Assembly (NCBI GenBank): GCA_903920865.1
Contig: CAIXNN010000055.1
Location: 1 to 35,535, forward strand
DNA from: an uncultured Actinomycetes bacterium
GTDB lineage: Bacteria > Actinomycetota > Actinomycetes > UBA12327
DNA length: 35,535 nt
Direction of reading: 5' to 3'
The position numbers were made by a program, and so were the translations under genes. Positions 1,632 through 17,061 of the stretch are shown piece by piece. The notes beneath the pieces are model-generated. The model saw nothing but the letters and a program-made list of their open reading frames with translations, did not search any database and was not told where the DNA came from. Each line of letters begins with the position of its first letter. Position 1 is the stretch's first letter.

Positions 1632-2081
1632 GTGTCTGATCCACGAGTGGTCTTCGTAGAAGGCTCGGGCGATGCCCCAAGTACCTTGACCTTGTCTGAA
1701 AAAGGAATGAAAACCTGGATCTTGTGGCGTTTACTTTCGGCGAATAACCGCGATCTTGGTCGAGGACAAAATCTCTTTGCTTCTCACGACCAAAGTGTTC
1801 AACACTTCCGCTTTGTTCGAGAAAACATTGAACGCGTTGAACCGGTCATTACTCATGCCGATGCTGGACTTGAATGGTTTTGGGTTTTGATGCTTGATGA
1901 ACAGCCAGTTGCCCGCAGCTCACGAGGGTATGAGCGGTTACGCGAATGCCACTATTGCCTGGCCCAATTTTTGGAGTCAGTGTCCACCGCTGAAGTTGTC
2001 GATGACCCCGAACGCATTGTTCGACTCCGACAAGATCACGCAGCACCGGGAACCTTTGAACCCTTTGCGGATGCACTGTGA
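1632..2081 (+). CDS. hypothetical protein, possible tandem DUF1508/YegP-like repeats; first gene of the pst locus
   Basis: 149 aa, GTG start with GGAGGTG upstream; WILWRLLSANNRDLGRGQNLFAS... and WFWVLMLDEQPVARSSRGYERLRECHYCLAQFLESV look like two degenerate YegP-type units; stop overlaps pstC start. Confidence 0.6.
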   Translation: MSDPRVVFVEGSGDAPSTLTLSEKGMKTWILWRLLSANNRDLGRGQNLFASHDQSVQHFRFVRENIERVEPVITHADAGLEWFWVLMLDEQPVARSSRGYERLRECHYCLAQFLESVSTAEVVDDPERIVRLRQDHAAPGTFEPFADAL

Positions 2082-3094
2082 ATACAACCGTTGTAGAACA
2101 GCGTCCAGAAACCGATGTAGCGGCACGGGAAATTCGTGAACGAGTCGGAATTGCTGATCTGATCTTTAGAGGAATTACGCGAACCAGCGGCATCACGGTC
2201 CTGACCATCATGTCTCTGGTGGGGCTCTTCTTGGCCTACCGAGCCAGTGAGGCCCTTCGAGCACAGGGGTTCAAATTTCTTACCGATCAGGCCTGGGAGC
2301 CAGATTCACGAAACTTTGGCATTGCCGCGATCTTGTTCGGAACATTCCTCATTGCATTGGTGGCAATAACAGTTGCAGTGCCGCTGGCAATTGGCACGGC
2401 TCTTTACATCTCTGAATATGCGCCACGTCGTTCTAAGCAATTGCTCATTAGTTTGGTCGACTTAATGGCAGCGGTGCCCAGCATCGTTTATGGATTGTGG
2501 GGATTGTTCCTTCTCCAAGGACGCGTCACTGGAATTTCGCGCTGGCTGACCACCTACTTCGGTTGGATCCCATTTCTGCATGTCGATGGTTTTGATAAGG
2601 CAGATCCGCTCGCTGGTCCGGCCGGAACGTTGACGTCCTCAACATTTATCGCAGGCATCGTCGTTGGGTTGATGGTCACTCCCATTGCTACCTCTGTGAT
2701 GCGGGAGGTTTTTTCCCAAGCTCCAGCAGGTGAGCGCGAAGGTGCGTTGGCCCTTGGAGCGACCAAGTGGGGAATGATCCGCTCGGTGGTGCTTCCCTTT
2801 GGCAAGGGCGGGATCATCGGCGGCACGATGCTTGGTTTGGGCCGAGCATTGGGCGAGACCATCACGGTCTACTTGATTATTTCGCCAGTCTTTTCTGTTC
2901 AGCCACACATTTTGGAAACGGGCGCTAGTTCAATCGCCGCCACTATTGCAGGTAAATACGGCGCCGCAAGCGCATTCGGTACGTCAGCGCTATTCGCCGC
3001 AGGGTTAGCGCTGTTTCTGGTGACATTGGTTGTCAACTTTGTGGCGGCATCCATCGTTGCTAAATCTCGTTCTGGAGCCGTGAGCGATGCCTGA
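2078..3094 (+). CDS. pstC: phosphate ABC transporter permease PstC
   Basis: 338 aa; DLMAAVPSIVYGLWGLFLL, EGALALGATKWGMIRSVVLPFGKGGIIGGTMLGLGRALGETITVYLII; GTG start overlapping upstream stop. Confidence 0.95.
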   Translation: MNTTVVEQRPETDVAAREIRERVGIADLIFRGITRTSGITVLTIMSLVGLFLAYRASEALRAQGFKFLTDQAWEPDSRNFGIAAILFGTFLIALVAITVAVPLAIGTALYISEYAPRRSKQLLISLVDLMAAVPSIVYGLWGLFLLQGRVTGISRWLTTYFGWIPFLHVDGFDKADPLAGPAGTLTSSTFIAGIVVGLMVTPIATSVMREVFSQAPAGEREGALALGATKWGMIRSVVLPFGKGGIIGGTMLGLGRALGETITVYLIISPVFSVQPHILETGASSIAATIAGKYGAASAFGTSALFAAGLALFLVTLVVNFVAASIVAKSRSGAVSDA

Positions 3095-4319
3095 GATAAC
3101 AGATCCGGAAAAACTTTTTGCGCCCCGTGCTGATGGTTTGAGCACCACCGTTGTGCCACCTATTCCTAGTGATGCTCCTGCGACTCGAGCTCGCAGCATC
3201 TCTGGTTTGCGTCGATCAGATCTGCTGGCCCTTGGTGGTTCTGCGCTGGCTGCGTTGAGCATTGTCACCTTGCTGTTTACGCAGATTGCGCCCCTTTCGG
3301 GCCCGATTGGTTTTGTGCTCTTGACCTATGTGATTTTCTTGGTCCTTTATGCACTCTTGGTTTCCTTTGACGAATCGGGTCCGGTCGTTCGCGACCGCGT
3401 TGTGGCAGCCGTAGTGCACTCCCTTGCTTTTCTGCTCCTGTCCGCGCTTGTAGTGATCGTTGCTTTTACGGCTTACCGTGGGTTGAAAGCCTTGGTACAC
3501 ATAAATTTTTATACCCAGGACTTGACTAATGCCGGACCGCTGGATCCGTTGTCTGTGGGTGGAATCAGTCACGCCATCGTTGGCACCCTGATTGAAATCA
3601 GTATCGCCTTGGCGATAGTTATTCCACTGGGTATCACCTGCGCGGTATTTCTTAATGAAATCCCTGGAACATTCGCACGTTTTGTCCGCACCATTGCCGA
3701 AGCGATGACTGCGTTGCCCTCCATCGTTGCAGGACTTTTTATTTACGCGACATTGATTTTAATTTTGGGATTGCCTAAGTCTGGTTTTGCTGCCGCACTT
3801 GCGATCAGCGTGATGATGCTTCCCATCATCATTCGAGCAGCCGATGTGGTGTTGCGCCTGGTCCCGGGTTCATTGAAGGAAGCATCCCTTGCCTTAGGCA
3901 CTGGCCAGTGGCGAACGGTCTGGCACGTGACCTTGCCCACGGCGCGCTCCGGGTTGATGACAGCGGTGATTTTGGGTGCCGCTCGTGGCATTGGTGAGAC
4001 ATCCCCAGTCTTGATCACCGCTGGATACACGGCGTCGATGAACACCAATCCGTTCTCCGGTCCGATGGTCTCGCTGCCACTAGCCGCATTCAACTTGGTG
4101 GGCAACCCGCAGATTACGTCGATTCAACGCGCCTTTGGCGCTGCTATGACGTTGCTAGTTGTGGTCTTAGTTCTGTTTGTGATCGCGCGAATTATTGGTG
4201 GGCGTGGGCCAGGAAACCTCACGAAGCGCCAAGTGCAGCGACGGGCCAAAGAGTCTGAACGCGATGCCAAGAGATTTTCTCAGTTAGCAGATACCACTAC
4301 AAGGAGTTCATCAACGTGA
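3087..4319 (+). CDS. pstA: phosphate ABC transporter permease PstA
   Basis: 410 aa; MTALPSIVAGLFIYATLILILG, KEASLALGTGQWRTVWHVTLPTARSGLMTAVILGAARGIGETSPVLITAG. Confidence 0.95.
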   Translation: MPEITDPEKLFAPRADGLSTTVVPPIPSDAPATRARSISGLRRSDLLALGGSALAALSIVTLLFTQIAPLSGPIGFVLLTYVIFLVLYALLVSFDESGPVVRDRVVAAVVHSLAFLLLSALVVIVAFTAYRGLKALVHINFYTQDLTNAGPLDPLSVGGISHAIVGTLIEISIALAIVIPLGITCAVFLNEIPGTFARFVRTIAEAMTALPSIVAGLFIYATLILILGLPKSGFAAALAISVMMLPIIIRAADVVLRLVPGSLKEASLALGTGQWRTVWHVTLPTARSGLMTAVILGAARGIGETSPVLITAGYTASMNTNPFSGPMVSLPLAAFNLVGNPQITSIQRAFGAAMTLLVVVLVLFVIARIIGGRGPGNLTKRQVQRRAKESERDAKRFSQLADTTTRSSST

Positions 4320-5923
4320 TGCGCCAACGATTCAGTTTTGTGAAGTCTCGTCGCGGATTGACCACTTTCATGACTCTTGGTTTGTCCATTTTGGTGATGA
4401 CGATCGGCAGTCCCGCGCAAGCTGCAAGTTATGTACCGGTTAGTGGCGCCGGTTCTACCTGGAGCCAGGTTGCTTTGGACCAATGGCGCCGAAACGTTGT
4501 GCAGTACGGCATCAAGGTCAACTACGCAGGTACTGGCTCCTCTGATGGTCGAAACCAATTTCGCAACGGCACCGTTGACTTCGCCGTTTCCGAGATCCCT
4601 TACGGCCTCAAGGATGGTGGTGTTGTTGATAGCCCGCCATCTCGTGGCTACGCGTACATGCCGATCGTGGCTGGTGGAACCTCTTTTATGTACAACTTAG
4701 TTATCGGCGGAAAGCGTGTCACCAACCTGCGATTGTCAGGTCCTACCTTGGCAGGCATCTTCACCGGCAACATTAAGAACTGGAATGACCCTAAGGTTGC
4801 AGCTGACAATCCCTCCCTTGCTCTGCCAGCTCGCAAGATCGTTCCGGTAGTTCGCTCGGATGGTTCGGGTACGACAGCTCAGTTCACAACGTGGCTAAGT
4901 TCGAAGTACTCAAGTTTGTGGAATGCCTACTGCGTGAAGGCCGGCAGAAATTCGCCCTGTGGGGTGACGTCGAACTACCCGGTGGTTCCTGGCGGCGGCT
5001 TTACCGCCCAGTCAGGTTCCCTAGGTGTTTCTGGCTATGTCTCACAGAGCGCAAACGTGGGAACGATCACCTATGTCGAGTACGCCTACGCACTCAACAC
5101 TGGGTTCCCAGTTGCCAAGGTGCTCAACAAGGCGGGCTACTACACCGAACCAACCGCCTCCAATGTTGCAGTTGGGCTTCTTGGGGCCACTGTGAACAAC
5201 GATTCCAAGTCCTCGGCCTATCTGACCCAGCAGCTGGGTGGGGTCTACAACAACTCGGACAAGCGCACCTACCCGCTGTCGAGCTACAGCTACATGGTCA
5301 TCCCCACGCGCCAAGAGTTTGGTTTTAGTTCAGATAAGGGCTACACATTAGGCGCCTTTGCGTACTACTTCCTGTGTCAAGGTCAGCAGCAAGCCGATGT
5401 TTTGGGGTATTCGGCGCTACCGATCAACTTGGTGAAGGCAGGGCTAGAACAGGTGAAGAAGATCCCTGGTGTTGACGTGAAGTCCGTCAACATTGCCAAA
5501 TGCAATAACCCAACGTTCTCAAGTACAGGGGCGAACTTGCTGGCCAAGAACGCCCCTTATCCGCCGGCCTGCGATAAGCAAGGTGCAGCTCAATGCACTA
5601 CGGGCACCGGTGGTCAGCGCAACACATCAACTGCTGTGACCAAGGGATCAGGTAGTACGGGGACATCTTCGACGACGGGTTCGACCACCACCGACACTGC
5701 AACGACCTCTGGTGCTGTTGATCCAGCCGGTGGCACTGCAGTGCAAGGTGGAGGCCTCACCGGCGAACAAAGTCAAGCCACGGCCTTGACTGTGCCCCCA
5801 TCAACTGGTTGGGGCATTGAGCAAACTTCCGTCATTGTTGCGGGCATCTTCTTGCTCGGATTGGTGATTGCTCCACCACTTGTAGCTCGCCGGTTACGAC
5901 GCCGTGGGGGCCTTACGCCATGA
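4316..5923 (+). CDS. pstS: PstS-family phosphate substrate-binding protein with C-terminal Ser/Thr linker and TM anchor
   Basis: 535 aa; signal peptide; VSGAGSTWSQVALDQW, GTGSSDGRNQFRNGTVDFAVSEIPY, VVRSDGSGTTAQFTTWLS; C-terminal TM VIVAGIFLLGLVIAPPLVARRLRRRGG. Confidence 0.88.
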   Translation: MMRQRFSFVKSRRGLTTFMTLGLSILVMTIGSPAQAASYVPVSGAGSTWSQVALDQWRRNVVQYGIKVNYAGTGSSDGRNQFRNGTVDFAVSEIPYGLKDGGVVDSPPSRGYAYMPIVAGGTSFMYNLVIGGKRVTNLRLSGPTLAGIFTGNIKNWNDPKVAADNPSLALPARKIVPVVRSDGSGTTAQFTTWLSSKYSSLWNAYCVKAGRNSPCGVTSNYPVVPGGGFTAQSGSLGVSGYVSQSANVGTITYVEYAYALNTGFPVAKVLNKAGYYTEPTASNVAVGLLGATVNNDSKSSAYLTQQLGGVYNNSDKRTYPLSSYSYMVIPTRQEFGFSSDKGYTLGAFAYYFLCQGQQQADVLGYSALPINLVKAGLEQVKKIPGVDVKSVNIAKCNNPTFSSTGANLLAKNAPYPPACDKQGAAQCTTGTGGQRNTSTAVTKGSGSTGTSSTTGSTTTDTATTSGAVDPAGGTAVQGGGLTGEQSQATALTVPPSTGWGIEQTSVIVAGIFLLGLVIAPPLVARRLRRRGGLTP

Positions 5924-8322
5924 CCTCAACTCCACTGACAACCAATCACACCCGCCTTGGCCGACTGGCCTTGGCGAGTGTGGTTATTTCGGTTGCAGTG
6001 GGTTCATCGTTGATCGGCGCCCCGAATATGGCGCAAGCAACCTCTCGGGTTGGGGCCGCGTCGATTACTCAGTCGGGCACAGGGGACTACAGCGACCTTA
6101 AAGTCACGGTTGACCAGACGGAAAACCTGACCAATCAAGTGGTGCGTGTGTCCTGGACGGGTGGGGTTCCCACTCCGGTGGATTCGATTTACTCGAAGAA
6201 TTACTTGCAGATGTTTCAGTGCTGGGGTGATGCAGCAGAGGGACCTGATCGCACGCAATGTCAATTTGGTGGCTTTACCGGAGACCCTCGCGGTGGTGCA
6301 GATTCATCAACGTCTTCTCGTCAAGTTAGCTATGGCTCGCTACGCGATGATCCAGCCGAGCCCATCAAATATGACGGTGGTTTTTATCAAGCGTCCGTAC
6401 CTTTCAAGTCTGTAACGGGTAAAACGATCCCAGGTGTTGGCGACGACTCTCGAGAGTTCTTTAACTCGTTTACGACGAACGAGATTCCCTACGCGCGTAC
6501 CAGCCCTGATGGCACCGGCGAGCAGTTTTTTGAGGTCCAAACAGCCCTTGATGCGCCCGGCCTTGGTTGCGGAACTCCGGTTGGCTCAGGAACAACTGCG
6601 CGCGGCCGTGGTTGCTGGCTTGTGGTTGTTCCACGCGGCGATCGAGACGTCAATGGCACCCTGATAGAAGGCAGCAATTCGCTGTATTCCTCACCTTTGG
6701 AGTATTCCAACTGGCAGAACCGAATTGTCATCCCGTTAGGTTTCCAGGCCATTGCTGCCTCATGCAAGATCGGAGCCAAGGAGCGTGAAACTCTTGGTCA
6801 AGAAGGGGTTGAAGAGGCACTGAACCGGTGGCAGCCGAAGCTTTGCGAAAGTGCTGGAACGATTTTTAGCTACTCGCAGGTGCCGGACTCCACAGCTCGT
6901 GCCAACTTAGTAGCCAGTCCTTCATTGTCGTTCCTATCTAACCCGGTCTCAAATGATCGACTTGGCGCTGATCACCCAGCTGTCTATGCCCCGGTTGCTG
7001 CCAACGCCACTGTTATCGCCTTCAACATCTACAGCAATTCCAGTGGACGCGCGCCGCCACCGGAGGTGACCAAAGATGATGGCAAGCGCTTGACGCAGAT
7101 GAATCTCAACCAGCGTTTGGTTCTTAAGTTGTTATCGCAGTCGTATCGCTTGAGTTTGGCCAATGCCTTGGCGCCCGAAGTTGCGAACAACCCCGAGGAC
7201 ATTGTCGCCGACACTGAGTTTAGAAATCTCAATCCAAACTTCACCGGCAAGGGGCGCCAACTCCAGACCCTGTCAAGACTCTTGATGACGGTAAGCAATT
7301 CCGATTCCGCGAGCACGTTGTGGAAATGGGTACTCAGTGATAAGGATGCTCGCGACTTTTTGGCCGGCAAGCCCGATCCCTATGGCATGACAATCAATCC
7401 AAACTACAAGAACCTTGATCTGGCCATTGATCGCTTCCCTCGAAATGACCTGTATTGCGCCGATGTGCAGCCAGGTTTTCCGCAACTGTGCGAATTTGAT
7501 GCCCACCCTTATGCCGCAGATGACCACGATGCTGCGCGCGCGACCTCACGCGGTGACACGCTTGGCCGCTTGTGGGATCCAAACTCCACCCCGCCGTCCT
7601 TCAAGCGAGTTCCTCTGCAGCCCAATAACGCGCAAGGCTTGTTGTGTATCACCGATGCTGCTACTGCCGCGCGATATGGCCTATCTACAGCCAACCTTGT
7701 GAACGCCAGCAAGAACTTCGTAGCACCGACATCCACAAACATGCTTGCCGCGATCGGACACATGAAAGAAGTCGCAGGTACGTCGGTTCTTCAAGCGAAC
7801 CCATCGGCGGCTACTGGGAATTCCTATCCACTCACGAACCTGACCTATGCAGCCACCGTGCCCACCAAGTTGACAGCTGAAGCGGCAAAGGATTACTCGG
7901 ACCTGATCAAATATGCAGTCGGACCTGGACAAACTCCAGGATTGCTCCAGGGTCAGTTACCTGACGGATACGCCCCGTTGCCTAACAATCTCCGCGCCCA
8001 GGCTGTAACCGCCGCTGACCACATAGTTTCGCAGCAGAAGATCGGCGTAGTGGCTCCATCAAGTTCTGGAACTAACCGCGCTCCGGGCAACACGTCAGCG
8101 GTTCCCAGCATTGATGGTGGCCCGGTCGTGCCGGTAGCAGCTGTGACCGCGCTGCCGGACAACCAATCGCGATCACCCCTTGCAGCTGTTGTTAACGCTG
8201 CGCAAGCAGTGGTAGCGGCTCTGGGGCTTGGCCGATTTGCAGTTCTGGTCGCGTTGATTCTTGCATTGGGTTCGGCCTTTAGTGGGCCGATTCTCTACAA
8301 GCTCGGGGGGCGTGCGCTATGA
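5920..8322 (+). CDS. large secreted PstS-like protein (800 aa) with C-terminal TM anchor
   Basis: ATGA overlap with upstream gene; signal peptide; C-terminal part YPLTNLTYAATVPTKL...YSDLIKYAVGPGQTPGLLQGQLPDGYAPLPNNL resembles PstS C-termini; TM FAVLVALILALGSAFSGPILYKLGG. Confidence 0.7.
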   Translation: MTSTPLTTNHTRLGRLALASVVISVAVGSSLIGAPNMAQATSRVGAASITQSGTGDYSDLKVTVDQTENLTNQVVRVSWTGGVPTPVDSIYSKNYLQMFQCWGDAAEGPDRTQCQFGGFTGDPRGGADSSTSSRQVSYGSLRDDPAEPIKYDGGFYQASVPFKSVTGKTIPGVGDDSREFFNSFTTNEIPYARTSPDGTGEQFFEVQTALDAPGLGCGTPVGSGTTARGRGCWLVVVPRGDRDVNGTLIEGSNSLYSSPLEYSNWQNRIVIPLGFQAIAASCKIGAKERETLGQEGVEEALNRWQPKLCESAGTIFSYSQVPDSTARANLVASPSLSFLSNPVSNDRLGADHPAVYAPVAANATVIAFNIYSNSSGRAPPPEVTKDDGKRLTQMNLNQRLVLKLLSQSYRLSLANALAPEVANNPEDIVADTEFRNLNPNFTGKGRQLQTLSRLLMTVSNSDSASTLWKWVLSDKDARDFLAGKPDPYGMTINPNYKNLDLAIDRFPRNDLYCADVQPGFPQLCEFDAHPYAADDHDAARATSRGDTLGRLWDPNSTPPSFKRVPLQPNNAQGLLCITDAATAARYGLSTANLVNASKNFVAPTSTNMLAAIGHMKEVAGTSVLQANPSAATGNSYPLTNLTYAATVPTKLTAEAAKDYSDLIKYAVGPGQTPGLLQGQLPDGYAPLPNNLRAQAVTAADHIVSQQKIGVVAPSSSGTNRAPGNTSAVPSIDGGPVVPVAAVTALPDNQSRSPLAAVVNAAQAVVAALGLGRFAVLVALILALGSAFSGPILYKLGGRAL

Positions 8323-8452
8323 CGCTACCTCGTAGTCCGCACCACCAGCTACACAACTCAATATGGTTTACAACTTCATAAGGCCCGCACAACAACAACC
8401 CGGCGCAAATTGTGTTGGGACAACTGAGATAGAAATCGAGAGGAAATTGATT

Positions 8453-9991
8453 ATGAACAGCAAGTACAAGCTTGCTACGGCAGCGGCTGCGGTTATCGCA
8501 ATTGCTGCTAGTGGACTCACGATGGGCTCGGCCTATGCCGATCCATCTGGTTCCCCCACGTACCGCACCCTTTCAGGTGTTGGCTCCGACACCACTGAAG
8601 GTGTCGTCGCTGGCCTTTCTGACGGCATAACCTCCTTGTCCTTGACCTCGTCCTTGGTTTCGGACGGAACAATTACGGACTTGACCGGTGCCACGATTCC
8701 TAGCGGCACCAAGATCGTCGGTAGCTACAACGCCCAAGGAACAGCCACCATCAAGACCAAGGCTTCAGCTTTGTGTGACGCGGTAACGCGTCAAAATGGT
8801 TCGGGCGCCGGCAAGACGGGTCTCTTGGCTTCGTTGAACAACGTCAACACGCCTGCTACGACCAGTGCGACCGGTGATGTCAACACCAACGGAACCATCA
8901 CGAACGTCTCGAGTACCACTGGCGTTCAGGCAGGTCTTCAAGTCACCGGCACAAACATTCCAGCCGGAACCTTTGTCACCGGGGTTTCAGGAACCACGAT
9001 TTCAACATCTGGTCCTACCTTGCCAACAGGTGCCGCGACTGCTGCCGCGCTCGGATTCAAGGGTGACGGTTGCTTGCAGTTCTCACGTTCATCATCTGGT
9101 GGATCTGGAACCAACAGCCCAGCTTTGACCTACGTGCCGTTCGCACTCGATGCAGTGGACTATGCAGTCACCCCCACGAGCAACGTCTCGCGCACTTTGC
9201 GTAAGTCAGACCTCCAGGGTTACTACACCTGCAACACCGACTACGTAACCGAGACGATCACCTCGATCTCTGTTACCGCTGGTGGTACGGGTTACACCTC
9301 AGCTCCCACCGTTGTGATCACCGGCAACGCCAGCCAGGGCTCCGGCGCAACGGCAACTGCAGTAGTTACCTCCGGTGCTGTTACCGCCGTCAACTTGACC
9401 AACGCTGGTTCGGGCTACGGTTCAATTACCGTGAGCTTCACCGGTGGCGCTGGCTCGGGTGCAGCTGCCAAGGCCGTAGTTACCTCCGACATCAAGCCTG
9501 TGCTTCCGCAGGCTGGCTCGGGAACTCGCTCCTTCTGGGAATCCCAAATGGGTATTGCTGACGCCGACGTTGTTGCTGGTAAGTACCCATGCATCATCGA
9601 TGGTTCCTACAACAGCCAAACCATTGAGGAGCACACGGGAACATTCCTCACCGACAACATGTTGGTGCCGTTCTCCATCCCGCAGTACAACGCGCAAGCA
9701 ACTCAGTTGCTAACCGACCGTCGCGGTCGTGCCCAGTTGGCTTCAATTGCTAGCGGTGGAACCTCATCCGCGCCAACAGGAATCACCTCGCCAAACAAGG
9801 TGAACACGTCCTTCAACATCACACGATCTGTCTACAACGTGATTCCTACTGCGTTGAAGAACACCTCGCCGTGGAAGGAAGTTTTCAACGGTGGCTCATC
9901 GTTGGCGTGTAGCTCTGCTAGCCAAGCGATCATCCAGGCCTATGGCTTTGGATTGTCGGGAAGCTGTGGAGACGTCAGCAACTCGTACTAA
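8453..9991 (+). CDS. secreted PstS-like substrate-binding protein with two repeat-type insertions
   Basis: Start chosen at ATG 8453 (GAGAGGAAA upstream), not the ORF start 8363; signal peptide; [51 protein letters not shown] are SBP-like. Confidence 0.75.
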
Positions 9992-10010: not shown

Positions 10011-10066
10011 GTTTGGCGGCGGTGCGACCCACAAGGTTGTACACCTGGGTAGCACCGCCGCCAAAC
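10011..10066. terminator. long inverted repeat between secreted-protein genes (possible attenuator, stabiliser or minus-strand terminator)
   Basis: GTTTGGCGGCGGTGC (10011-10025) is perfectly complementary to GCACCGCCGCCAAAC (10052-10066); A-tract at 10004-10009 reads as a T-tract on the minus strand. Confidence 0.6.
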
Positions 10067-10108
10067 ACAACTCCCGCACAACATTCGAGAGAACAGAAGG
10101 TTAACATC

Positions 10109-11794
10109 GTGAAAATCAAGAAGCTGGTAGCCATCTCGGTTACCCTGAGTTTGACTGCTTTGGTTGGTGGGCTCAATGCCTCACCTGCCAGTGCAGCTGT
10201 GATTGGTTCGTTGGCATTGACGCCTGCGACCGGATCTAACTCCTCCGTGGTCACGGCCAACAGCTCTGGCGCCTGTGACAACGGTACAAACATCAAAATG
10301 ACCGTCGCTGGTACGGGCGTTCAAACAGCATCAGAGAACATTGTTGGCAACTCGGGTATCGCAGGATACGCGACCAACGGCAATGGCGGGATCACCGTTC
10401 CGTCGGCGTACAACATGACGGACTTCGGAAACCTGCAGTCACCGGCTCTTACTAGTTACAGCGGTCGGTATGACTTCACGCTGGTGTGCAAGAACTCTGT
10501 CGGTGCAACGACCTATGGAACGTTCACTGGTGGCATTTACTTCACCTCATCAACCGTTTACCACACCACTGCAACGTCAATTACTGCTTCGGGTGCGCAA
10601 ACCAGTGCCACCACGGATACGGCTGACTTGACGGCCACTGTCTCAGGTTCGGTTACACCTGTGGGCACGGTTCAGTTCAAGGTGGACGGCAGCAACGTTG
10701 GCAGCCCAGCAACCGTTAACGGTTCAGGTGTTGCCACGTTGACGACGCCCACCCTCTCGGTGGGAAGCCACACGGTGGACGCCACGTTCATCCCCAGCAC
10801 GACGGCATTCGATGGTTCCGCTGCAACGCAGGGATCCTTCTCCACCGTTGCCAAGCTCGTTGCCACGACCACCACGTTGACCGCTGACCAGGGCTCACCT
10901 GTGACCCCCGGCACGGCGATCACCTTGACGGCGGCAACTGGCCCAGCCAGCACCCCTGGTTCGGTTCAGTTCAAGAAGAACGGTTCGAACTTGGGTTCGC
11001 CCGTGACTGTTGCTTCTAACCAGGCGCAGTACGTGTACACCCCCAGTGGCGAGGAAACGGATGCCTTTACGGCCACCTTTACTCCTACCGGATCGTTCAC
11101 TGACTCAACGTCAAACACGGTGAACATTGAAGTGAGCAACAAGCCTTCATCGACCGAAGACATTGTGACCAAGATTACCGCTCAGGGTGCCTTGGTTATT
11201 TCGGTCAATGGTTGCTCCTACGCCAGTCCACCGCAGGCTGCACCGCTGAACGATGGCCCATCAACGGGTCCGTCAAATGGTGCAAGCGGAACGGTCGGAA
11301 GCACTGACAACACGGTCAACCCTTGTAACGATGTCATTTTGCCGACACCAACTCTCAACGGTGCTGGCAACTTGCTGCAGACCTCGGGAACCTTGAAGCC
11401 AGTGACGATCACTGACACTCGCACTCCTGACCAGTCGTGGTCCTTCACCGGACAGGTTGACGACTTCAAGGACTTCGGTGGGGTTCACACTCTGCCTGGT
11501 TCAGGTCTTGGTTGGACTCCTTCGGTGACCTCAACCAACATCGCGGACAACGTTTTCGCTGGTGCAACTGTGGCCAGTGACGCCGGTCCGATCACCTTCT
11601 CCTCGAGTGCTGGTTTGAAGACGGCTCGCGCCTTCGCTTACACCAGCTCGAAGACCGGAACAGTTGGTACCTCTGGTGCCGCAACCGGTTCAGGTCTGGG
11701 AACCACAGTGCTGGGAGGCTCGTTGACCCTGAACGTGCCCACCAACGCCGTTCCTGGTGTGTACCTGGCTCATCTGACCCTGACCGCCATCTAG
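10109..11794 (+). CDS. secreted Ig-like repeat protein with C-terminal WxL-like domain
   Basis: GTG 10109 preceded by AGAAGG; signal peptide VKIKKLVAISVTLSLTALVGGLNASPASAA; two Big_5-like Ig domains (GTVQFKVDGSNVG..., GSVQFKKNGSNLG...); C-terminus ITDTRTPDQSWSFTGQVDDF...LGWTPSV...LTLNVPTNAVPGVYLAHLTLTAI. Confidence 0.75.
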   Translation: MKIKKLVAISVTLSLTALVGGLNASPASAAVIGSLALTPATGSNSSVVTANSSGACDNGTNIKMTVAGTGVQTASENIVGNSGIAGYATNGNGGITVPSAYNMTDFGNLQSPALTSYSGRYDFTLVCKNSVGATTYGTFTGGIYFTSSTVYHTTATSITASGAQTSATTDTADLTATVSGSVTPVGTVQFKVDGSNVGSPATVNGSGVATLTTPTLSVGSHTVDATFIPSTTAFDGSAATQGSFSTVAKLVATTTTLTADQGSPVTPGTAITLTAATGPASTPGSVQFKKNGSNLGSPVTVASNQAQYVYTPSGEETDAFTATFTPTGSFTDSTSNTVNIEVSNKPSSTEDIVTKITAQGALVISVNGCSYASPPQAAPLNDGPSTGPSNGASGTVGSTDNTVNPCNDVILPTPTLNGAGNLLQTSGTLKPVTITDTRTPDQSWSFTGQVDDFKDFGGVHTLPGSGLGWTPSVTSTNIADNVFAGATVASDAGPITFSSSAGLKTARAFAYTSSKTGTVGTSGAATGSGLGTTVLGGSLTLNVPTNAVPGVYLAHLTLTAI

Positions 11795-11851: not shown

Positions 11852-11951
11852 TCGCTTTGGGGGTGGCCAGGCGCCAAATCCACGCTCGCAATTCACAGGC
11901 ACTTCCCTGCTCGTTTACCTGCGCGCCACCTTGGTTGGGTTGGCTTTAGGC

Positions 11952-13097
11952 ATGCAGAACAGCCGTGGATCACGCCCTGGGTGGCGGTGGGTGTCCATGC
12001 TTTTTGCCACGCTTGTTCTTGGTTCCACAGTTGCAGCTCCAGCAATTGCCGCGCCCACGCCAGAGCCGACCTCGCCACTGAAAACGTATGGAGCTCCGAG
12101 TCAACAAACAACAGCCACCTGGGCGTTGGTGCCAGTTGACGCAAGCGGAGACCTAGATGGTCGTTCGAAGTATGCATATACGGCCAAGCCGGGTGCGGTG
12201 ATCACCGACATGATGGGTGTGACAAATTTCAGCACCCAAGCATTGACCCTGAAACTTGAAGCCATCGATGCTTTCAATACCCCCGACGGGCAGTTTGCAT
12301 TGTTGCAAACGGGAGCAAAGTCCAAGGACCTTGGCCAGTGGATTACTCCCAGCCAATCACGAATAACGGTGCCGGCACGAACACGTTTGAGCATTCCATT
12401 CACACTCCGTGTTCCAAAGGATGCCTCACCTGGTGACCACATTGCTGGCGTTGTAGCAACCGCGGTCCAAGGTGCATCGGGATCAAAGGATCAGAAAGTT
12501 GCAGTCAATTTCCGCACTGGTTCTCGGGTGTATCTGCGGGTAACGGGGGCCATTCGCGCAACTTTGTCGCTGACCAATGTCTCGGCAAGCTATTCCCAGA
12601 CAGCCAACCCATTAGGTCGCGGCACGGTCACTGTGCGTTATCGAGTTGTCAACAGTGGCAACGTTCGCTTGGCCGCACGTGGCACGGTCACTGTGGCAGG
12701 TGTTGGAGGGCTAAACCCCACACCTGAACAGAAGCTGCAAATCAGTGAGCTCCTGCCGGGACAGTCTGCTGACCTTTCTACCGAGATCGATTCAGTTGCA
12801 CCGCTGGGGCTGTTGAAGGCATCCGTTGTCCTTCATCCCGTTCTCGCCCGTGGTGTGAGCGCCCCCAAACTCGCGGATACAAGCGCCAGTGTGTGGTTCG
12901 TGGCGGTATCTGTCACAGCAGCATTGATCCTGTTTGGCCTACTAGCTGGATTCGTTCTCTGGCTCTTGGTTCTACGACCAGGAGTGCCTGGCATCGGTGG
13001 CGGCAGCGGTAGTGGCGATGCCAATACTGACCCAACGCCGCAAGCCCCGACCAGTGATTTTGTTGAATCCGATGTTGATCTAGGAGCGTTGGTGTAG
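11952..13097 (+). CDS. DUF916/WxL peptidoglycan-binding-domain-like membrane protein
   Basis: ATG 11952 preferred over TTG 11931; signal peptide; ATWALVPVD...PGAVITDMMGVTNFSTQALTLKLEAIDAFNTPDGQFAL...FTLRVPKDASPGDHIAGVVATAV...GSRVYLRVTG; C-terminal TM LILFGLLAGFVLWLLVLRPG. Confidence 0.75.
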   Translation: MQNSRGSRPGWRWVSMLFATLVLGSTVAAPAIAAPTPEPTSPLKTYGAPSQQTTATWALVPVDASGDLDGRSKYAYTAKPGAVITDMMGVTNFSTQALTLKLEAIDAFNTPDGQFALLQTGAKSKDLGQWITPSQSRITVPARTRLSIPFTLRVPKDASPGDHIAGVVATAVQGASGSKDQKVAVNFRTGSRVYLRVTGAIRATLSLTNVSASYSQTANPLGRGTVTVRYRVVNSGNVRLAARGTVTVAGVGGLNPTPEQKLQISELLPGQSADLSTEIDSVAPLGLLKASVVLHPVLARGVSAPKLADTSASVWFVAVSVTAALILFGLLAGFVLWLLVLRPGVPGIGGGSGSGDANTDPTPQAPTSDFVESDVDLGALV

Positions 13098-13822
13098 TGA
13101 AAGTTCGATGGCTAGCCGCACTTGTGTCAACGATTGTCATGGGCGTGCTCTTTGCTGTGGCCTCGCCTAGTTATGCCTCAACTCTGGGTGATCTCACGGT
13201 CACGCCAGCCAACGGAAACGATTCATCCGTTGTGGTGATCACGACCTCTGGTCCTTGTCCGCGCGAGGCAACCAATGTCATTGCCACCATCACTGGTTCG
13301 GGATTTGAATCAGGACAAAACCTGATTGGGAACTCTCCGTTACGAATCTACCCTCGCACTACCAAAGGGGGATACATCATCCCGTTGCAGTACACGTTCG
13401 GGGACGTGGCAAAACTTCAACGTGTGTATAAGGGCCTTACCGGTTCGTACAAAGTCGTGGCCACGTGCCGCGGGGTGATTAAGCCGACAGATCTGGGTCA
13501 ATTCACCGGCACTGTTTCCTTTTCGAACAAGGTTGGAGCCGGTGGTTACCGCAACTATGTCGCTAAGAACCCGGCAACTGCACCGGTGCCGACTCAGGGC
13601 ACGCTGAACGGCCAAACGAAGGGTTCTGGCTCTTCGGCCTCGCAGCCGGTTCAAACTCCGCAGGGATTGAGCCCATCAACTAACGGTGATGGAACCGATA
13701 GCGCAGGTTCGAATTCTGACTCAGGAATTGGCCGTGAACTTTTGTTCGTAGGTCTTGCCATCATTTTGATGCTGGCTGCTGCTTTGTACGTTCGTCGTTC
13801 CCAATCCGCAAAGAGGTCCTAG
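13097..13822 (+). CDS. secreted/TM-anchored protein with the paralogous 'LGxLxxTPAxG' module
   Basis: 241 aa; signal peptide, STLGDLTVTPANGNDSSVVVITTSGPC..., C-terminal TM LLFVGLAIILMLAAALYVRRSQSAKRS. Confidence 0.7.
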   Translation: MKVRWLAALVSTIVMGVLFAVASPSYASTLGDLTVTPANGNDSSVVVITTSGPCPREATNVIATITGSGFESGQNLIGNSPLRIYPRTTKGGYIIPLQYTFGDVAKLQRVYKGLTGSYKVVATCRGVIKPTDLGQFTGTVSFSNKVGAGGYRNYVAKNPATAPVPTQGTLNGQTKGSGSSASQPVQTPQGLSPSTNGDGTDSAGSNSDSGIGRELLFVGLAIILMLAAALYVRRSQSAKRS

Positions 13823-13922
13823 GGATGTTCACAAACCATTTCAACTATGTACGGGGAAGAAGCTAATGAATAGGGATGTTCACAAACCATTTCAACTATG
13901 TACAGGAAAGAAGCGAATGAAG
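13821..13922 (+). repeat. 51-bp tandem duplication (2 copies) spanning RBS and start codon of the next gene
   Basis: agggatgttcacaaaccatttcaactatgtacggggaagaagctaatgaat (13821-13871) / agggatgttcacaaaccatttcaactatgtacaggaaagaagcgaatgaag (13872-13922); 47/51 identical. Confidence 0.93.
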
Positions 13923-15218
13923 ACGAGCAGGCGTCAGATTGCCTCTGTAGTGACCGTATGTGGCCTAGTGGCTGCAGGCTTGTTTGCCGTAAGTGCCCCG
14001 GCCCAGGCAGCGGTTCTTGGTTCTCTAAAGATCGCCCCAGGATCTGGAAACCTTCAAACGGTTATTTCAGTGTCAACTCCAGGCCAGTGCGATCAGGGCA
14101 CCAATATCAAGGTCATCATTTCTGGCGCTGGAGTCCAATCAGCCACCGAGAACATCGTGGGAAATACAGCAATTACGTCGTACCCAACCAATCTTGATGG
14201 CGGATTCGATATTGAATTCCCGTCAACACTGGCCGATTACGGTACTACCCAATCACCAGCGCTGACATCGTTTAGTGGCCGCTATGACATCAGCGTGATT
14301 TGTAAGAACAGTTTCGGGACCACAACCTATGGAACCTTCACCGGTTCGCTCTACTTCTCATCAGGAACTGCCTGGACAAGCACGAAGCCGGCAACGACAA
14401 CAACCCTGACGGCAACTCCGGCTAGCAGCTCCTACCAAGGCGAAAACGTTCACTTGGAAGCAGCGGTTACTCCATTAGGGGTGGCTGGAACTGTGCAGTT
14501 CAAAGACGGCGCTGTAGATCTTGGAAGCGTCTCGCCTGCCCCTACCGGTGTAGCAAGTCTCGACACCACAGCCCTTACCGTCGGCCCGCACATCCTCACA
14601 GCGGTATTCACGCCCGCTGATGCACTCTCCTTTGGGGAATCAACATCAAATTCGGTGTCTTACGAGATTTTGACCCCGGCGGCTCCGAGCGTAATTACAG
14701 GGGCAAGCGCAACTGGCACCTACAAGGTTGGTTACACAATCGCCTGTGGAGCCGCTTTCCAGGGAGCGAGCTCGACTGCCTACGCCTGGCTCAACAATGG
14801 TGTGGCAATTTCGGGGCAGACGGCTAGCACTTTCTACCTCTCGGGTAGTTACTACAACCGCACAATTTCTTGTACAGCCACCGGACACAACTCCTACGGC
14901 GATACACCATCGACAAGCACAGGCCACCTGATCGCTCTGGGTTCAAAGCCAACGCTGCGCAGAGCTCCAGTGATTTCGGGAACAGTCAAGGTTGGCAAGA
15001 CCATTTCTACCTCTAAGGGGACGTGGTCACTTTCAGGTTTGACGTATTCGTATCAGTGGAAGCGAAACGGCAAGTCAATTGCTGGAAGTGTGGCCCGCAA
15101 AATCTCCTACAAGGTGGTTGCAGCCGACAAGGGCAAGTACCTCACCTGCACTGTCACCGTTCGCAAGACCGGTTATGCGAGTAACTCGGCAACGACCGGA
15201 CGCAAGAAGGCTGCATAG
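13917..15218 (+). CDS. secreted protein with paralogous N-terminal module, Ig-like domain and two cell-wall-type YQW repeats
   Basis: ATG 13917 gives signal peptide MKTSRRQIASVVTVCGLVAAGLFAVSAPAQAA; in-frame alternative ATG 13866; repeats ...YAWLNNGVAISGQTASTF... and ...YSYQWKRNGKSIAGSVARKISYKVVAADKGKYLTCTVTV. Confidence 0.75.
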   Translation: MKTSRRQIASVVTVCGLVAAGLFAVSAPAQAAVLGSLKIAPGSGNLQTVISVSTPGQCDQGTNIKVIISGAGVQSATENIVGNTAITSYPTNLDGGFDIEFPSTLADYGTTQSPALTSFSGRYDISVICKNSFGTTTYGTFTGSLYFSSGTAWTSTKPATTTTLTATPASSSYQGENVHLEAAVTPLGVAGTVQFKDGAVDLGSVSPAPTGVASLDTTALTVGPHILTAVFTPADALSFGESTSNSVSYEILTPAAPSVITGASATGTYKVGYTIACGAAFQGASSTAYAWLNNGVAISGQTASTFYLSGSYYNRTISCTATGHNSYGDTPSTSTGHLIALGSKPTLRRAPVISGTVKVGKTISTSKGTWSLSGLTYSYQWKRNGKSIAGSVARKISYKVVAADKGKYLTCTVTVRKTGYASNSATTGRKKAA

Positions 15219-15220
15219 TC

Positions 15221-16183
15221 ATGACAACCACGTCCGCACAACGACCCTCAGACTCTGGTATCGCATCAGAGTCTGAGGTCGTGCGGTCTTCGGTCGGACA
15301 AAACCAGCTTTCGTCAAATACCGGCGAGACGTTGAACCAGCCGCAATCGGTTCTTGTAGGTGCAAGTTTGTGCATCCTGGCGGCGCTGCTGGTTGGATTT
15401 CTGGTCAATTTGACGGTCGTGGGTTCACTCAAGCATGCACGTGATCAGGTCGTGGCCTTTGATTCCCTCCGCGTTTCCTTGGCTAAGGCCACCGCACCGG
15501 TGGGACCCAAAGACGTAAACGGCCGCTTGCTCAGCCTGGGAACTCCGGTTGCTTTAATTACGATTCCAAAATTGGGCGTTGAGCAAACGGTTCTCGAGGG
15601 CACCACATCCCGAGTACTTGTGAGCGGACCTGGGCACCAACGAAGTTCAGTTCTTCCGGGCCAAGCTGGTTCGGTCATCATCATGGGTCGCAAAGACGCA
15701 TACGGCGGTCCGTTTGCTGGCTTGAAGAATATGTATCGCGGACAGCTGATCCAGACGACAACGGGTCAAGGTAAGGCCACGTACAAAGTGGTGGCGGTCA
15801 ACAGTGGGGCCAAAGCCGCTGTTGCTCCTGCAAATTTGCCACTCAATCGACTGACCTTGATCACGGCCGATGGCTACCGATTCCTTCCGGACGGAATTAC
15901 CCGAGTCGATGCGGAGCTCATCACTCCTGCGTTCAACCCTGCGGCCCAGTTGCTTTCTGACGCATCCTTGACACCAGCTGAGGCTGCTTTAGCCGGAGAT
16001 TCGAGCGCCTGGATTCCGCTGGTTTTTTGGATCCAAGCCCTACTCGTTGCGGCCCTGGCCATGACGTGGGCGTGGGCGCGTTGGGGCCGTTGGCAGGCCT
16101 GGGTTGTTGGAGTTCCAGTGATTTTGTTCATCGGTTTGTCCGTTGCCGGACAAGTCTCGTTGCTTTTGCCTAATCTGATCTAA
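15221..16183 (+). CDS. sortase-fold membrane protein lacking the catalytic Cys and His (predicted pseudo-sortase)
   Basis: 320 aa; N-terminal TM; ALITIPKLGVEQTVLEGT...GPGHQRSSVLPGQAGSVIIMGRKDAYGGPFAGLKNMYRGQLI...NRLTLITADGYRFLPDGITRVDAELI; two C-terminal hydrophobic segments. Confidence 0.8.
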   Translation: MTTTSAQRPSDSGIASESEVVRSSVGQNQLSSNTGETLNQPQSVLVGASLCILAALLVGFLVNLTVVGSLKHARDQVVAFDSLRVSLAKATAPVGPKDVNGRLLSLGTPVALITIPKLGVEQTVLEGTTSRVLVSGPGHQRSSVLPGQAGSVIIMGRKDAYGGPFAGLKNMYRGQLIQTTTGQGKATYKVVAVNSGAKAAVAPANLPLNRLTLITADGYRFLPDGITRVDAELITPAFNPAAQLLSDASLTPAEAALAGDSSAWIPLVFWIQALLVAALAMTWAWARWGRWQAWVVGVPVILFIGLSVAGQVSLLLPNLI

Positions 16184-16191
16184 GGAGAGAT

Positions 16192-17061
16192 ATGCCTAAC
16201 GTGAATGGAGCCACCATCGTGTTGCCCGCTGCACCCGATGTCATCAATGAGAAGTCAGTAGAGCCCGGTCGTGGGTTCAGTGATGGGCAAAGCGCTCTTG
16301 AGGCACGTGAGATCACGGCATGGTTTGGCACTCATAAAGTTCTTGATCGCGTTTCATTGACCATGCCAGCTGGCCAGGTGACGGCTTTGATCGGCCCATC
16401 CGGCTGTGGTAAGTCAACCTTTCTTCGCACCTTGAACAGAATGCATGAATTAATTCCTGGATCAAGTTTTGCTGGTGAGGTTTTGCTTGATGGGGATGAC
16501 CTGTATGCACCCAATCGTCGCCTCACTGATGCGCGTCGCCAAGTTGGCATGGTCTTCCAAAAGCCAAACCCGTTCCCAGCAATGTCGATCTATGACAATG
16601 TCTTGGCTGGTCTTAAGCTCACCGGCGCTAAGACTGATCGTGACCAGAAAGATGCTTTGGTTGAGGAGTGCCTGACAAAGGCTGGACTATGGAAGGAAAC
16701 CAAGGACCGCCTACGCCAGCCTGGTGGGGCGCTCTCAGGTGGCCAGCAACAGCGGCTGTGCATTGCTCGCAGCCTTGCAGTTCGTCCGCGGGTCCTGTTG
16801 ATGGACGAACCGTGTTCGGCCCTGGACCCGACGTCGACTCGACGTATCGAGCAAACGATTCGCGAACTTGTTGAAGAGGTAACCATCGTGATCGTCACGC
16901 ACAACATGCAACAGGCTCAACGTGTTTCTGAGCAGTGTGCCTTCTTCCTTGCCGAACAAGGTACCCCTGGTGTCATCGTTGAATATGGTCCCACTGAAGC
17001 CATGTTCAGCGAACCATCAGATCAGCGCACGTTTGACTATGTGCACGGTCGTTTCGGATAA
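16192..17061 (+). CDS. pstB: phosphate ABC transporter ATP-binding protein PstB
   Basis: Walker A GPSGCGKST, signature LSGGQQQR, Walker B VLLMDEPCSALDP, VTHNMQQAQRVSEQCAFF, C-terminus TFDYVHGRFG. Confidence 0.95.
   Translation: MPNVNGATIVLPAAPDVINEKSVEPGRGFSDGQSALEAREITAWFGTHKVLDRVSLTMPAGQVTALIGPSGCGKSTFLRTLNRMHELIPGSSFAGEVLLDGDDLYAPNRRLTDARRQVGMVFQKPNPFPAMSIYDNVLAGLKLTGAKTDRDQKDALVEECLTKAGLWKETKDRLRQPGGALSGGQQQRLCIARSLAVRPRVLLMDEPCSALDPTSTRRIEQTIRELVEEVTIVIVTHNMQQAQRVSEQCAFFLAEQGTPGVIVEYGPTEAMFSEPSDQRTFDYVHGRFG

Follow-up and report, generated by a model that had tools for sequence, protein, structure and literature searches.

The described proteins closest to the one reported here are the class E sortases SrtE1 of Streptomyces coelicolor (5cuw) and SrtE of S. 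avermitilis (5go5/5go6), which have a beta-barrel, an N-terminal transmembrane (TM) segment and a framework of conserved motifs (IP.LG, EGTT and GPGH..T.LPG[QE].G). In SrtE1, a beta6/beta7 loop of 26 residues contacts a bound tripeptide (PMC5148588). Two other systems bear on the genomic setting, namely the PstSCAB phosphate ABC importer and the WxL/WxLIP surface systems of Firmicutes. To our knowledge, no sortase-fold protein is part of the known WxL systems. The locus analysed here lies in a 35,535-nucleotide stretch of DNA from an uncultured Actinomycetes bacterium (contig CAIXNN010000055.1; hereafter ‘the window’), and it encodes a protein with the class E barrel, N-terminal TM and motif framework. 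Unlike class E sortases, this protein lacks the catalytic triad, has a shorter loop before beta-7, carries two extra C-terminal TM helices and belongs to a constant operon with Pst genes and a gene that we call orf800. We refer to it as the pseudo-sortase.

The pseudo-sortase gene (15221-16183, + strand) encodes 320 amino acids, and our description of it draws on the open reading frame, Pfam, TM segments, an AlphaFold2 model and structure matches. An N-terminal TM (residues ~44-66) is followed by a helical linker to residue 88, the sortase barrel (~107-236), two further TM helices (~261-288 and ~290-315) and a conserved end, LLPNL(I/L). As hydrophobic segments, the three helices map to ~44-62 (TM1), 263-281 (TM2) and 298-316 (TM3). 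The loop joining TM2 and TM3, RWGRWQ, is positive, and by the positive-inside rule this fits a topology in which the N-terminus is inside and both the barrel and the C-terminus are outside.

A sortase beta-barrel fold is recovered by family models, profile comparison and structure search alike. Pfam Sortase (PF04203) matches residues 113-215 (E 8.4e-14; 51.8 bits, cut-off 26.6), profile-profile alignment with canonical relatives gives a probability of 99.9, and the AlphaFold2 model (pLDDT 86, pTM 0.79) retrieves sortases as all top 50 matches listed in a Foldseek search of the PDB. Among these are SrtD (4d70, TMt 0.71) and SrtE (5go6, TMt 0.74), with class E structures in general at TMt 0.70-0.74. 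The NCBIfam models for class E, GN and D sortases also match, all below their own cut-offs; the class E model NF033747 scores 55.2 bits against a cut-off of 160, which places the protein outside that class as the model defines it. A preliminary description of the window had reported a clear sortase frame at this position with two C-terminal hydrophobic segments. Both observations are borne out, with TM1 as a further segment, and the overlay of a predicted model on sortases that it suggested points the same way.

Active sortases have a His within a G-H-R..TYG.PF motif, a nucleophile Cys that ends beta-7 (TLTTC) and an active-site Arg in beta-8, and none of the three is present in the pseudo-sortase. 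The His site is occupied by Arg157 (codon cgc, 15689-15691, + strand), the Cys site by Ala216 (gcc, 15866-15868, +) and the Arg site by Ile226 (att, 15896-15898, +). Across 130 distinct homologues, the His site is always basic (Arg in 126, Lys in 4). The Cys site is Ala in 107, Ser in 12, Gly in nine, and Thr and Val in one each, but never Cys, and the Arg site is mostly Val, Ala, Ile, Leu or Thr, with Phe, Glu and Ser found once each and Arg not at all. A gapless TL.T[C/A] match and profile-profile alignment both assign Ala216 to the Cys site. One MAFFT run, with the column shifted by one, instead offered Asp217, against both of these. The loss of the nucleophile does not depend on this placement, because the sortase domain is devoid of Cys in all 130 homologues.

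The preliminary description had already proposed that Arg replaces the catalytic His and Ala the catalytic Cys; both proposals are confirmed, and alignment with sortases does not move the catalytic residues elsewhere. It was mistaken in regarding the catalytic Arg as retained, since the Arg that it saw is Arg228, two residues beyond the equivalent position. Retention is ruled out by the alignment for the 130-member clade and is true only of its deepest Pst-linked relatives. With His, Cys and Arg all replaced and the fold kept, there is strong support for the idea that the sortase fold is catalytically dead. Judged by these three positions, the pseudo-sortase is a sortase-fold protein and not a sortase enzyme. 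The same genome codes elsewhere for an ordinary sortase (L001) with GHR..NGEPF, TMTTC and RLIV motifs, and thus the substitutions are specific to the pseudo-sortase gene. With an Arg in place of the His and, beside it, a small residue in place of the Cys, the site would be suited not to catalysis but to binding an anion, a carboxylate or a backbone carbonyl. The segment that runs from beta-6 into the Cys strand is also altered, with ~20 residues in the clade compared with 22-56, usually at least 29, in canonical relatives, whose loop lengths were taken by motif search.

Relatives of the pseudo-sortase in 60 genomes fall into two sets, one of full-length proteins without the triad and the other of ordinary sortases that match only residues ~50-220. 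A profile search of 394 genomes of the class was likewise bimodal, with 53 genomes at or above ~137 bits and ordinary sortases at or below ~120 bits; one canonical sortase in this sample (G310/L167) was left out. A scan of a collection of named genomes returned 428 relatives. The best 80 of these (L033-L112) come from Streptomyces, Streptacidiphilus, Kitasatospora, Amycolatopsis, Micromonosporaceae, Jiangella, Nakamurella, Cellulomonas, Promicromonospora, Microbacterium, Glaciihabitans and Planotetraspora, as well as from metagenome-assembled genomes labelled Bifidobacteriaceae, Acidimicrobiales and others. A search for carriage on plasmids gave no match.

In the window, the pseudo-sortase gene is embedded in an operon of the order pstC-pstA-pstS-orf800-orf542-Ig-like-WxLIP-241aa-450aa-pseudo-sortase-pstB, all on the + strand. 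The genes for a PstC-type permease (2078-3094; TIGR02138, E 1.8e-75), a PstA-type permease (3087-4319; TIGR00974, E 6e-60), a PstS-type substrate-binding protein that has a C-terminal TM and keeps the RSDGSGT motif (4316-5923) and a PstB-type ATPase that begins 8 bp downstream of the pseudo-sortase (16192-17061) are clear members of the PstSCAB families, and together they make this a Pst-type ABC operon. Compared with PstSCAB, it adds the degenerate giant PstS encoded by orf800, the secreted PstS-like product of orf542, the pseudo-sortase and surface proteins. Because the genome also has an ordinary PstS-C-A-B set at a separate site, the operon with the pseudo-sortase is an additional system. 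In the PstS of the window and most of its relatives (38/50), a Glu follows VDFA.S, where Asp is found in 12. This site is near the ligand in E. coli PstS, and the substrate may differ from phosphate.

Among the genes between orf800 and the pseudo-sortase, orf542 and those for the Ig-like and WxLIP-like proteins are variable members. The product of orf542 (8363-9991, +) is a secreted PstS-like protein with GVGSDTT and GSGTR motifs and no C-terminal anchor; it belongs to no Pfam family and has a weak profile match to solved phosphate-binding proteins. It is followed by a secreted Ig-like (Big_3_5) protein (10013-11794, +), whose listed TTG start is probably too early, a membrane-anchored WxLIP-like protein (11931-13097, +; PF06030, E 1.9e-7), a secreted or anchored protein (13097-13822, +) and a second secreted Ig-like (Big_3_5) protein (13866-15218, +), which adjoins the pseudo-sortase on its upstream side. 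The Ig-like proteins of the window have no match to the Pfam WxL domain. The 13097-13822 product and the two Ig-like proteins, of 593 and 450 aa, have in common an N-terminal domain of ~130 aa that corresponds to no named family and follows the pattern LGSL..P..GN..SV...C...TNI......G......EN..GN. At other loci (L054, L070, L039, L056, L066, L094 and others), some proteins carry LPxTG- or LAxTG-like C-termini, which are absent from the window operon.

The tie to Pst genes persists while gene order varies between loci, with pstB sometimes leading the operon. In the named genomes, pstB lies downstream of the pseudo-sortase at 80/80 loci. Genes for pstA, pstB or pstC are present at 46 of the 54 class-sample loci, the other eight being fragments of 3.5-9.9 kb, and Pst genes accompany the pseudo-sortase at all 13 loci from other classes.

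The most constant partner is orf800 (5920-8322, +). As judged by profile, model and motif alignment, it encodes a PstS-fold protein that is anchored in the membrane and carries a large extra domain. It belongs to no Pfam family. Its profile matches the C-terminal part of PstS, and its model (pLDDT 83.5, pTM 0.82) matches PstS structures with TMt up to 0.80, with a large extra region. The protein begins with a signal-like segment and ends with a TM. When aligned with PstS, it has only a gap opposite the SGT of RSDGSGT, and this phosphate-binding motif appears to have been lost. At every locus where orf800 was detected (125/125), it shares its strand with the pseudo-sortase; this includes loci from other classes, where pstA is on the opposite strand in 9/13 and orf800 is still on the pseudo-sortase strand. 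In one sublineage of the class sample (25 loci), the two genes are immediate neighbours, less than 600 bp apart. A survey of 198 genomes found them together in 27. The pseudo-sortase occurs without orf800 in three genomes of 78-86% completeness (G002, G019 and G062), and orf800 occurs alone in two (G003 and G070), where the contig stops short of the place at which the pseudo-sortase would be expected. A third apparent case of orf800 alone, G171, was rejected when its weak match proved to be an ordinary PstS. Genomes with two pseudo-sortase copies mostly have two orf800 copies. The preliminary description had envisaged a binding role for the dead fold, with the neighbouring surface proteins as partners; these vary between genomes, and what is constant is the Pst transporter, above all orf800.

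We give modest preference to the reading that a specialised Pst-like ABC transporter has this non-catalytic, membrane-anchored sortase fold as a dedicated subunit on its extracytoplasmic side. The three TM helices would hold the dead barrel at the external surface of the membrane, and the barrel might bind orf800, most likely its partner, in the role of a scaffold or receptor, perhaps through an extended orf800 linker lying in the old substrate groove. In this way the barrel might position or regulate orf800 at the PstCA permease. Genetic linkage to Pst and orf800 is no proof of physical contact, and it could also be that TM1 and TM2/3 are the functional part and the barrel a mere spacer.

Alternatively, the pseudo-sortase might be a membrane receptor that retains or displays Ig-like and WxL-type surface proteins, with the Pst genes as mere neighbours. 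We consider this unlikely, if still deserving of attention, given that, in the window as in many Actinomycetes, genes for surface proteins and a WxLIP-like protein separate orf800 from the pseudo-sortase. The presence of WxLIP_PGBD (PF06030) and Ig-like secreted proteins in the window operon also recalls the WxL/WxLIP systems of Firmicutes, but these proteins are not constant across the pseudo-sortase family. A large sublineage has the order pstC-pstA-pstS-orf800-pseudo-sortase with nothing between the last two. Among the class-sample loci, WxLIP proteins are found at 20/54 and orf542 at 12/54, as against 49/54 for orf800, in a comparison where fast-evolving surface proteins are detected less sensitively.

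We regard as quite improbable that the pseudo-sortase binds sorting signals without cleaving them and so regulates the housekeeping sortase or acts as its decoy. Sortases with a Cys-to-Ala change are established substrate traps in vitro, and such mutants (1t2o and 9j0t) are among the structure matches. Sorting-signal-like C-termini are also present, with 12 somewhere in the 80 loci. However, there are none in the window operon, none on 49 PstS proteins and one weak case among 61 orf800 proteins. The substrate loop is shortened, and the tie to Pst and orf800 would be left unexplained.

Less probable again is that the protein is still an enzyme in which other residues, such as Arg157, His139, Arg210 or Thr181, replace the triad. 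Several polar residues are indeed near-invariant (H139, R141, R157, T181, Q183, R210 and D230). However, sortase chemistry needs a Cys thioester, and the domain offers no nucleophile Cys in any of the 130 homologues, most of which have Ala at that site. Furthermore, H139 is part of the GPGH motif that active relatives carry besides their catalytic His, and the pre-beta-7 loop, at ~20 residues, is shorter than the 26-residue SrtE1 loop that contacts the tripeptide (PMC5148588).

The pseudo-sortases form one clade, split from 18 canonical sortases by a single branch (SH-aLRT 97), and the family apparently has a single origin. Near-invariant residues in the clade include Q76, R84, Q148, R157, T181-G-Q-G184, R210, D230, W294 and P317-N318, and these lineage-specific positions argue for a kept function. 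A pair of homologues within the genus (L005 and L007) differs by a dN of 0.024 and a dS of 0.379 (dN/dS ~0.06), and other close pairs give ~0.07-0.35; in these measured pairs, the ratios indicate purifying selection on the gene. The preliminary description had noted that its interpretation would fall if orthologues kept Cys and His, and this is not so in the same genus, the same family, the class or other classes. Gene decay, misassembly or a sequencing error, which a single genome alone could not exclude, has a negligible chance of being the explanation, since the same substitutions recur in the same genus (L005, L007) and in many families and dN/dS within the genus is ~0.06; a strain mutation or sequencing error is ruled out on these grounds.

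A plausible route from an active enzyme can be sketched from relatives outside the clade. Three-TM sortases with the LLP end motif are found in another actinobacterial class (L185-L204, L233, L235-L238 and L240-L242). They resemble the pseudo-sortase in their N-terminal TM, sortase domain, LLP.. end and RW..W-type loop between two C-terminal TMs, and differ in that His, Cys and Arg are intact in 24 of the 25 examined and that no Pst genes are found at the eight loci with 12-20 kb of context. In eleven deep Pst-linked members, drawn from that class and its neighbours, the His site is occupied by Arg and the Cys site by Ser, Ala or Met, and seven of the 11 still have the catalytic Arg. A quick tree of 130 columns, from which the three catalytic positions had been left out, places these members at the base of the pseudo-sortase clade, with modest support at some deep forks. 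The simplest order suggested by these sequences would start from a three-TM sortase, proceed to linkage with Pst and the loss of His and Cys, and end with loss of the Arg. The protein first recruited to a Pst locus was probably a three-TM sortase that was still active; there it would have exchanged its His for Arg and its Cys for Ser or Ala, and the Arg would have been lost later as the groove-side loops shortened.

Two relatives have unusual combinations of residues. One (L226:3639-5876) keeps the His, has Ser for Cys and Gln for Arg, and lies near YacP-like and DivIVA-like genes, away from Pst. In the tree it sits near the base of the pseudo-sortase clade, and it may have branched off early or undergone its loss independently; the change from Cys to Ser might thus predate Pst linkage or be independent of it. 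The other (L231) is Pst-linked and has Met at the Cys site, with Cys residues flanking the loop of the His site (CRRLAFGGPC).

We found no prior account of a conserved dead-sortase family or of a Pst-linked sortase in the open-licence literature searched, and an earlier account elsewhere is possible. The excerpted text of a 2026 study gives five Actinoplanes missouriensis sortase candidates of 792, 273, 184, 240 and 247 aa, of class E and class F, and describes none of them as catalytically dead or Pst-linked (PMC13251363).

The family is widespread, with members in 53 of the 394 class genomes sampled and, in the named set, in Streptomyces and many other genera. By the Pfam domain alone, these proteins would be labelled sortases, which misleads both sortase counts and predictions of surface anchoring. 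How an enzyme could have turned into a non-enzyme can plausibly be traced through close relatives that are still active and through partial intermediates. The locus also hints at a Pst-type system that has not been described before and that includes PstS-like proteins of three kinds. We see a balanced case for the broader proposal that a sortase has given up catalysis to become an obligate part of a distinct Pst-like transport (or surface-sensing) machine, paired with a giant PstS-fold protein that itself appears to have lost phosphate binding. If so, these two degenerate proteins would constitute a new transporter module spread over Actinomycetota.
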